From positions 310,001 to 374,000 of the forward strand of contig JAFDWX010000001.1 of NCBI GenBank assembly GCA_018268255.1: DNA of 64,000 bases. The letters are read 5' to 3'. A program made the position numbers and the translations under genes. The stretch is from Armatimonadota bacterium (GTDB lineage Bacteria; Armatimonadota; Fimbriimonadia; Fimbriimonadales; Fimbriimonadaceae). This document shows positions 7,332-9,344 of the stretch, piece after piece. Numbering within the stretch: the first letter of the stretch is position 1; each line of letters starts with the position of its first letter. Under the pieces are notes generated by a model. That model had not been told where the DNA came from and did not search any database. It saw nothing but the letters and a program-made list of their open reading frames with translations.

Positions 7332-8594
7332 ATGCGACTGAAGCCTAAAAGCGACTTCAGCAGACAAGTCCTCACTCTGGCCACAGGCACGGCGATTGCC
7401 CAAGTGCTACCACTTGCGGCACTTCCGATCGTAAGTCGACTTTACACCCAGTCCCAAGTCGGAATTCTCACGCTGTTTTTGTCCATTGCCAGCGTGCTCG
7501 GAATCATCGCGACCGGAAGGTACGAGCTCGCCATCATGCTGCCCGAGGAGGATGAGGATGCTGTTAACCTCCTCGCGATTTCAATTACCTGCAGCGTGGT
7601 GTTTGCCGTTCTCACGCTCCTCATCGCCGTCTTCTTCAACGGCCAGATTTGTTCTTTGTTGGAATCGCGTGAAATCGGGCCGTGGCTTTACTGGATCCCG
7701 GCAACACTGATCGCGAATGCGGCTTACCAGGCTTACAACTACTGGTTCAATCGCAAGGAGATGTATCACCGCCTCGCTGTGAACCGCATCGGCCGTTCAG
7801 CAATCACTGAAGGTAGCAAGATCGGGTTTGGGACGTTGGCCCTCAGCCATATCGGATTAGTAATAGGCACGGTATTAGGCCAGACCGTCACTGCTCTGCG
7901 GTTCTTTTGGCAAGCCCGTCACGAGGATCGTGCGTCCATGAACAAGATCTCATGGGTGGGCATGCGAAAGATGCTCGGCAGATACCGAGATTTTCCGAGA
8001 TACACCGTACCTGCGGAGGTGGTCAACGACCTCAGTAAACGACTTCCGGTCTTTATCTTGGCAGGATTTGGGTCCACCGTCACAGGAAATTTCGGTATGG
8101 CCCAAATGGTAATGGGCGGACCATTGGGAATTCTGGGATCGGCATTCGCGGACGTCTTCAAGCAGCGGGCGTCGCGCGATTTTATCGAGCACGGCGAGTG
8201 CCGGGCTTTGTGGCTCAGGACTTTCAAGAAGCTCATCTTGATTTCCGTGCCGGTGTTCACCCTTGCCTATCTGTTAGCTCCTGTGGCGTTCAAGGTGATC
8301 CTCGGTCCTAAATGGGTTGAAGCAGGTTACTTCGCCCAGGCACTCACGCCGTACTATGCACTGGCCTTTATTGCGTCGCCCCTCTCCCGCACTCTGTACG
8401 TTGCCGAGGACCAGCATCTGGATCTCATCTGGCAATTGGGCCTGGTTGTGGGGGTGTATGCTGCGCTCACGTTCGGAGAGCAAACCGGAAATGTTTTGAC
8501 CACCCTTCGTTGGTTTGCTTGGACCTATACCGCCCTTTACGCGATATACCTGCTCCTCAGCTACCGATCATCTTGTGGCAAAACCCGCTCGTAA
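7332..8594 (+). CDS. Wzx-like polysaccharide flippase (oligosaccharide transporter family)
   Basis: 420 residues with about 11-12 hydrophobic segments from residue 15 (VLTLATGTAIAQVLPLAALP) to the end (TYTALYAIYLLLSY). The opening pattern, in which a short charged tail is followed by a membrane segment with GTAIAQ and then SRLYTQSQVGILTLFLS, is typical of the RfbX/Wzx group of polysaccharide biosynthesis exporters. They flip lipid-linked glycan units across the inner membrane. ATG 7332 was chosen over an earlier TTG because the membrane fold starts right after it. It is next to the DegT aminotransferase, which agrees with a surface-glycan job. No glycosyltransferases are in the window, so the cluster is a fragment or dispersed. 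Confidence 0.85.
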   Translation: MRLKPKSDFSRQVLTLATGTAIAQVLPLAALPIVSRLYTQSQVGILTLFLSIASVLGIIATGRYELAIMLPEEDEDAVNLLAISITCSVVFAVLTLLIAVFFNGQICSLLESREIGPWLYWIPATLIANAAYQAYNYWFNRKEMYHRLAVNRIGRSAITEGSKIGFGTLALSHIGLVIGTVLGQTVTALRFFWQARHEDRASMNKISWVGMRKMLGRYRDFPRYTVPAEVVNDLSKRLPVFILAGFGSTVTGNFGMAQMVMGGPLGILGSAFADVFKQRASRDFIEHGECRALWLRTFKKLILISVPVFTLAYLLAPVAFKVILGPKWVEAGYFAQALTPYYALAFIASPLSRTLYVAEDQHLDLIWQLGLVVGVYAALTFGEQTGNVLTTLRWFAWTYTALYAIYLLLSYRSSCGKTRS

Positions 8595-8652
8595 GAATAC
8601 GGTTTTTGTTCGGAACCTACGGACAAACTGTGAAAAGTTGTCACAAACGATT

Positions 8653-8962
8653 TTGCAAATGGTCCTGGTTGCGCTAAGATATTATCAGTTTGGGTAAGTC
8701 CAAATGGTGGCTCAAAGGCTACTTGAATTGCGCTGAGTACTGAGAGGTTGGACCATCCTTTGGAGAGGTGAGATTGGTGGTGGCTTCACTCCCGTTTTGC
8801 TGCCTTTAATCGTATCCCTATCTCAGAAAACATCGCGATGCCCCGGCATCCCGAGGCTGCCACAAGGTGTGCCTCGGGCTTGCGCCCGGCCTAGATGAGG
8901 CGGAACAGCTTCGGTGGGCATTTTGGGGAAAACTTGCCTCGCTCCCGGTTTCGGGGCGAGGC
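8653..8962 (+). ncRNA. Candidate structured non-coding RNA between the flippase and DUF6614 genes
   Basis: The 376 bases between 8595 and 8970 hold no plausible gene but show transcript-like order. TTGCAA (8653-8658) and AAGATA (8676-8681) are 17 bases apart, as in a promoter. Downstream, GTCCAA (in the segment after 8697) can pair with TTGGAC near 8748, then CCCGAGGC (8850-8857) pairs with GCCTCGGG (8871-8878), and a strong hairpin at 8936-8962 ends in a pyrimidine-rich run. I could not match it to tmRNA, RNase P RNA, SRP RNA or 6S RNA by their conserved words. It may be an unnamed small RNA, or simply a long untranslated stretch. Confidence 0.35.
8936..8962. terminator. Bidirectional terminator hairpin
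   Basis: GCCTCGC (8936-8942) pairs with GCGAGGC (8956-8962), and the inner CCCG/CGGG extends the stem. On the plus strand CTCTTCTCTTATT follows; on the minus strand AAGTTTTCC follows. It could end both the candidate RNA and the DUF6614 gene, whose stop lies eight bases away. Confidence 0.65.
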
Positions 8963-8970
8963 CTCTTCTC

Positions 8971-9303
8971 TTATTGTTCCAACACGTCCGGGTAATCGCG
9001 GTACAACCCCGACTTGTAATTCTGGACCCGGCTATAAACCTGTCTGTGGAGCTCTTCGACCTCGCCCGTCCTAGTCGCGGCGACCTTAAACGCTTCGTCT
9101 AACTGGGCAAGATTGCGTGTTTCAATGGAGATGGAAAATTCTCCCAGATCTGCCGGTCCGAAACCGAACTTCCTGCGCTTGATCCGGAATGTCTCGATAG
9201 TCCCCTTCGCCTGCAGAAAGCCAAGATAGGCGTTGATGGCATCCACAAACTCTGTGTCTTTGGCTCCTGGCGCTAGGTCGACCCAGATCTCGTAACAGTC
9301 CAT
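8971..9303 (-). CDS. DUF6614-like small protein
   Basis: 110 residues starting MDCYEIWVDLAPGAKDTEF. The conserved-looking stretches are the N-terminal MDCYEIWVDL, YLGFLQAKG, RIKRRKFGFGP and GEFSISIETRNLAQLDEAF, a pattern I associate with the DUF6614 family of about 110 residues; the fold looks like a ferredoxin-like alpha/beta protein. No function is known to me. ATG 9303 is chosen because a GGTAGAGT box (9311-9318, minus strand) ends seven bases before it. It is divergent from alaS with only 41 bases between start codons. Confidence 0.65.
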   Translation of the reverse strand: MDCYEIWVDLAPGAKDTEFVDAINAYLGFLQAKGTIETFRIKRRKFGFGPADLGEFSISIETRNLAQLDEAFKVAATRTGEVEELHRQVYSRVQNYKSGLYRDYPDVLEQ

Positions 9304-9310
9304 GCAAGGG

Positions 9311-9334
9311 ACTCTACCCCTTGGCGGGTACCCT
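9311..9334. promoter_or_regulatory. Back-to-back -10 boxes for DUF6614 and alaS
   Basis: GGTAGAGT on the minus strand (9311-9318) ends seven bases before ATG 9303. GGTACCCT on the plus strand (9327-9334) ends ten bases before ATG 9345. Both fit the recurrent box seen elsewhere in the window. The two promoters are packed into 41 bases, leaving almost no room for leaders. Confidence 0.5.
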
Positions 9335-9344
9335 TCTCCCATTC

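Follow-up and report, generated by a model that had tools for sequence, protein, structure and literature searches.

A genuine stand-alone gene is very probably present in the 64,000 nt stretch analysed here (the window). It would encode a structured non-coding RNA of about 285 nt and has a predicted sigma-70-type promoter and intrinsic terminator of its own. The initial annotation had proposed a possible new small RNA behind a flippase gene, and this proposal was supported: the RNA was recognised in all three searchable genomes of the genus, namely the window's own genome (G000) and two relatives (G001 and G002), and had no match in Rfam 15. The explanation preferred here rests on three sequences from these three genomes. 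A literature search at the level of listings indicated that little seems to have been published on regulatory RNAs of Armatimonadota; a survey of acidophiles mentions 6S RNA once. The gene described below is a defined candidate from this phylum that combines a predicted promoter and a terminator with a fold supported in part.

Position, promoter and terminator of the predicted RNA gene

The flippase gene (PF13440) lies directly upstream of the RNA region, and the DUF6614 gene (PF20319) occupies positions 8971–9342 on the opposite strand, back to back (divergent) with alaS. No gene was found between the flippase stop at 8594 and the end of the DUF6614 gene at 8971, in agreement with the approximately 275 bases without a gene that had been described initially. 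The RNA sequence had a single match in its own genome, and its features are listed in Table 1. A relative of the DUF6614 gene was present in 13 of the 37 genomes searched, its own included.

Table 1. Coordinates of the predicted RNA gene and its elements (window positions)
Feature	Position	Strand	Remarks
Whole unit (box to tail)	8639–8975	+	
Upstream box and promoter	8639–8680	+	Revised limits
TGTCACA box	8639–8645	+	Invariant in three-genome alignment A5
Promoter TTGCAA-16-TAAGAT	8653–8680	+	-35 at 8653–8658, -10 at 8675–8680
Predicted non-coding RNA, ~285 nt	8687–8972 (both approximate)	+	Start from -10, end from terminator
5' hairpin P2 (GGUGGCU/GGCUACU)	8706–8723	+	Pairing probability 0.94
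Central domain, closed by P3 (AUUGCG/CGCGAU)	8727–8839	+	Pairing 0.96
Conserved word GGTTGGACCATCCTTTGGAGAGGTG, within central domain	8746–8770	+	
3' domain: closing helix P4 (CCCC/GGGG) around hairpins P5 and P6	8841–8928	+	Alignment A4, pair counts
Word TTTTGGGGAAAA	8921–8932	+	Same in G001; TTTTGGGGTGAA in G002
Terminator hairpin and pyrimidine tail	8936–8975	+	10-pair stem

The promoter had initially been read as TTGCAA with AAGATA 17 bases on. The first element was retained, and the second was shifted to the register that fits the relatives, TTGCAA-16-TAAGAT. The corresponding promoters were TTGGAG-17-TACACT in G001 and TTGTCA-18-TAAGAT in G002, both with matching distances to the box (by hand), such that a TTG is found 16–18 nt before the -10 element in each of the three copies. 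The distance from TGTCACA to the -10 element, also counted by hand, was 36, 38 and 37 nt in G000, G001 and G002 respectively. The -10 hexamers of G000 and G001 align with each other; the placement in G002 rests on spacing, because MAFFT put a gap in this sequence opposite the -10 hexamer of the other two copies. A consensus promoter scan returned 0 sites at threshold against a shuffle mean of 1.5, and the promoter alone was thus not significant; the combined pattern of box and promoter occurred once in the window. The recurrence of TGTCACA just upstream of the -35 element in three genomes points to a possible activator site.

The predicted RNA ends in a hairpin at 8936–8962 with 10 pairs, 8 of them G-C, and the tail CTCTTCTCTT. 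This hairpin ranked first among 13 terminator-like sites in 3 kb (3.8 in shuffles), consistent with the final strong hairpin and pyrimidine run noted at the outset, and it may serve as terminator for the opposite-strand DUF6614 gene as well, which stops at 8971. In several terminators of the window's family (L118–L120 and L161–L163), the G+C hairpin leads into a run of mixed C/T in place of a pure T run. A further short element, TAAGAATACGGTTTTT (8592–8607), overlaps the flippase stop in G000 and is found in identical form shortly behind the flippase stop in G001 (L032), despite a flippase protein identity of 55 % between the two genomes. It is perhaps a short terminator or some other signal.

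Copies in the genus and support for the fold

A plain DNA search of 61 genomes returned, besides the window's own copy, short weak matches only. The lead to a relative came from two of these in G001 (Chthonomonas sp. UBA2391, Armatimonadota, contig DDSL01000134.1), whose order and spacing were as in G000. A covariance model of the G000 and G001 copies (R1) was searched against 85 family genomes and found the copy in G002, which had not been used to build it, with E 8.2e-6 and 24.9 bits. In G000 the RNA stands between the flippase gene and the opposite-strand DUF6614 gene. G001 has the same aminotransferase–flippase pair as G000, followed by the RNA and a same-strand YkuD gene; the true start of this gene is probably further down, because the longest frame for it starts within the terminator. 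In G002 the RNA lies between an MFS transporter gene and a same-strand purA. The genus copies, of which a single one was recognised in each genome, therefore occupy two unrelated kinds of place.

The span from predicted start to terminator tail was 289 nt in G000, 291 nt in G001 and 285 nt in G002. Shared by the three copies were the TGTCACA box, the matching promoter spacing, the words CCGAG and TTTTGGGG of the 3' domain, and the terminator. Local alignment scores for the three pairs of copies were 48.5, 37.0 and 37.5, compared with dinucleotide-shuffle means of 16.9, 18.0 and 16.7, and for each pair none of 300 shuffles reached the observed score. The central pattern TTGGACCANNNNTTGGAGAGGTG was present with all 19 specified bases in both G000 and G001, and no match with up to three mismatches was found in G002. 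Allowing the same number of mismatches, the search for this pattern gave 69 matches in total against approximately 97 for the reversed control, so the matches beyond G000 and G001 are not above chance. A scan of genome contigs with the pattern, from which the window's genome was possibly left out, returned one record, the G001 contig.

Neighbouring genes were also used as anchors. The flippase had a match in 20 of the 85 genomes, and no counterpart of the RNA was seen by eye behind the flippase of G002 and five others; the loci beyond these were covered by motif scan only. The DUF6614 protein served as a second anchor for relatives.

The region of the window's copy had a folding energy of -116.6 kcal/mol, compared with -103.9 kcal/mol for shuffles (z -2.6; 2 of 200 shuffles equally good), which is consistent with the several pairing segments described in the initial annotation. 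G002 has a hairpin near the position of P2 with a pairing probability of 0.93. P3 was found in G001 as UUGCGC/GCGCAG (pairing 0.89), and no counterpart was identified in G002. In the 3' domain the pairing probabilities in G000 were 0.71 for P4, 1.00 for P5 and 0.64 for P6; single-sequence folding of G002 prefers other pairings, with P4 at 0.00 and P6 weak at 0.26. A further hairpin, P5b (GGGC/GCCC), was discarded at a pairing of 0.00 in both G000 and G001. Because two-sequence RNAalifold on the alignment of G000 and G001 (A2) gave a poor consensus, single folds were used to draw up by hand the structures of R1 and of the 3' domain model described below (R2).

To count conserved pairs, the 35 pairs of the 3' domain and terminator were scored in three sequences, giving 105 cells. 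The structure counted was chosen on these same three sequences, which favours it; with this bias, 91.4 % of the cells pair, against 82.2 % in shuffles (0 of 500 as high) and 30–51 % in slid controls, leaving approximately 9 % unpaired. Changes on both sides of a pair were seen in 9 of the 35 pairs, compared with 3.0 in shuffles (0 of 500). By helix, these were 3 in P5, 2 in P6, 4 in the terminator and 0 in P4. The count of further pair types was matched by 6 of 500 shuffles. The terminator helix was 96.7 % paired across the three sequences. Conserved pairing in relatives, whose absence had been named beforehand as grounds for rejecting the RNA, is thus present, in the form of both-side changes in the 3' domain and terminator.

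Searches beyond the genus and against known RNA families

Outside the genus, no full relative could be convincingly identified, either with R1 on the 85 family genomes or with R2 on 40 relatives and 113 order genomes. Filtering was stricter in the family-wide scans, and distant relatives could be missed in this way. All nine matches of R1 in other genera (E 0.012–4.9) lay inside open frames of at least 150 aa, with no TGTCACA within 330 nt upstream and no TTTTGGGG within 150 nt, and they were rejected. R2, comprising the 3' domain and terminator, was run on the 40 relatives and then, with stricter filters, on the 113 order genomes. It scored the three copies, which are its own training set, at 122–127 bits, and all others at 30.2 bits or less. 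Of the 46 non-copy matches listed for the 40 relatives, 15 were inspected; these resemble gene-end terminators, coding sequence or both, as do the five of the 113-genome scan, all of which were inspected. Two matches, L159 (G071, 30.2 bits) and L118 (G004, 28.7 bits), showed a partial P5/P6 alignment at a gene end and were judged to be chance.

Within the genus, a segment of G002 (L144, 1527–1561 of G002:C6, + strand) repeats 29 of the 35 bases of the P6–TTTTGGGG segment, with a blastn E of 2e-5 within a 3 kb locus that had itself been chosen by R2. It adjoins a hairpin behind a gene and has neither the TGTCACA box nor the remaining RNA. It may be a fragment, a paralogue or chance.

At gathering scores, Rfam 15 gave no match in the region and only one tRNA over the whole window; at E of 10 or less, 441 bases gave five matches, all at chance level. 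RNase P RNA (RF00010) and SRP RNA (RF00169) did not match the candidate and were found elsewhere in all three genus genomes, at 242–257 and 46–56 bits respectively. No tmRNA, with its tRNA-like part and tag frame, was found in the region by ARAGORN or Rfam. Together with a tuned 6S model, these searches agree with the initial statement that the region matches none of tmRNA, RNase P, SRP or 6S RNA. No convincingly conserved frame for a small protein was found, the best cross-match having E 0.013 (antisense) and the best in sense E 0.07. The RNA is new relative to Rfam 15 and to the literature at listing level.

The distribution of 6S RNA was determined with two models. Of 14 control genomes, the Rfam model (RF00013) detected 6S in only 6. 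When 21 relatives were searched with it at E of 1 or less, other families had hits in 3 of 8 genomes, two of them over the cut-off, and the window's family had one in 1 of 13 (G008, E 0.55, 17.3 bits, below the cut-off). An order-tuned model, R3, was built from the three other-family hits, two from the sister family f2 and one from f3. R3 found 6S in 7/7 genomes of f2, 1/1 of f3, 1/6 of f5 and 0/1 of f4; when the three training genomes were left out, the counts were 5/5 for f2 and 1/6 for f5. In the window's family (f1), it found 6S in none of 25 genomes, G000 included, at E below 1, and two f1 genomes had weak matches at E 1.3–3.2. The family has therefore either lost 6S or has one that is unrecognisable.

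The candidate itself did not match the Rfam 6S model at E of 10 or less, and R3 with default filters found nothing. With filters off, the three copies scored 7.1, 2.5 and 4.6 bits with R3, matching in fragments of the outer stem only; the 7.1-bit match had E 0.022 for 401 bases. The form of 6S, a rod of approximately 180 nt whose ends pair and which has a bubble at its centre, was not seen: the folds of G000 and G001 consist of separate domains without a closing stem, and the minimum-energy fold of G002 has an end contact of 4 pairs only.

Interpretation and comparison with known RNAs

The RNA would be transcribed from its own sigma-70-type promoter, with the TGTCACA box just upstream, and would end at its own intrinsic terminator. 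By kind it would be a trans-acting small RNA gene, having a predicted promoter of its own, an intrinsic terminator, no convincingly conserved frame and conservation apart from its neighbours. We infer, less firmly than the RNA gene itself, that the transcript acts in trans, probably through the folded 3' domain. This domain (P4–P5–P6 with UUUUGGGG) would be the working part, because it is kept in all three genomes, and a protein would most likely bind it. The word with GGAGAGGUG in the central domain, present in two genomes only, may make another contact that changes faster, possibly to messenger RNAs.

Several other readings of the region were considered. The RNA could derive from the upstream transporter-type gene, as a regulated 3' UTR or a processed 3'-end RNA made without a promoter of its own. 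This would fit the finding that each genome has a same-strand membrane-protein gene ending 91–95 nt ahead of the predicted start (92 nt in G000, by hand; 95 nt in G001; 91 nt in G002). Such an origin is nonetheless unlikely: the upstream gene of G002 encodes an MFS transporter and not a flippase, yet the TGTCACA box and promoter spacing are kept, and in G000 a hairpin of 4 pairs followed by TTTTT overlaps the flippase stop, as judged by eye. The same-strand genes that follow in G001 (YkuD) and G002 (purA) would suit a cis-acting leader, either a riboswitch or an attenuator, ending in the terminator. However, the RNA cannot be a leader in G000, because the next gene there is on the other strand, and the downstream genes are mutually unrelated; we consider a leader very improbable. 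It is just as hard to credit that the terminator alone is real, serving the DUF6614 gene from the other side, the remainder being unconstrained spacer. No single element is stronger than the terminator, which contributes 4 of the 9 both-side changes, and the R2 matches inspected outside the genus were mostly terminators. However, the box, the central word (G000 and G001) and P5/P6 are conserved too, and 5 of the pairs changed on both sides lie outside the terminator.

The candidate could also be the strongly diverged 6S of this lineage, binding RNA polymerase in place of the ordinary 6S. In favour of this are the detection of ordinary 6S in f2, f3 and one genome of f5 but in none of the 25 genomes of f1, and the single-copy, free-standing and structured nature of the candidate. 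Against it are the R3 results, with nothing at default filters and at most 7.1 bits with filters off, the length of ~285 nt in several domains instead of a ~180 nt rod, the ends that form no closing stem, and the recognition of the RNA in one genus only when 6S is undetected across the whole family. We therefore regard a diverged 6S as quite unlikely. Slightly bolder, and decidedly doubtful, is the idea that a structured RNA of a new class succeeded 6S as global regulator of the polymerase, in a family where no ordinary 6S is detectable. With 6S absent or disguised in this family, the candidate offers a concrete way to ask whether a global RNA regulator is replaceable in bacteria.

A stand-alone structured RNA gene remains the preferred reading, and it can be compared with three known systems. 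The best sub-threshold Rfam match was the Pxr sRNA (RF01812), in which the terminator-type 3' hairpin aligns; the candidate's score of 20 bits lies below the gathering score of 80 and, with E 0.28, is at chance level. With 6S/SsrS RNA (RF00013), which binds RNA polymerase and serves as template for short product RNAs, it has in common that it is a free-standing, single-copy, structured RNA gene of the housekeeping type, but the candidate is longer, has several domains, lacks a closing stem and receives no meaningful model score. The orphan structured RNAs of the raiA-motif and ModT type differ from the candidate, which is without an Rfam match and recognised in one genus only; like them, it is a structured non-coding RNA with gene neighbours that do not make its role evident.
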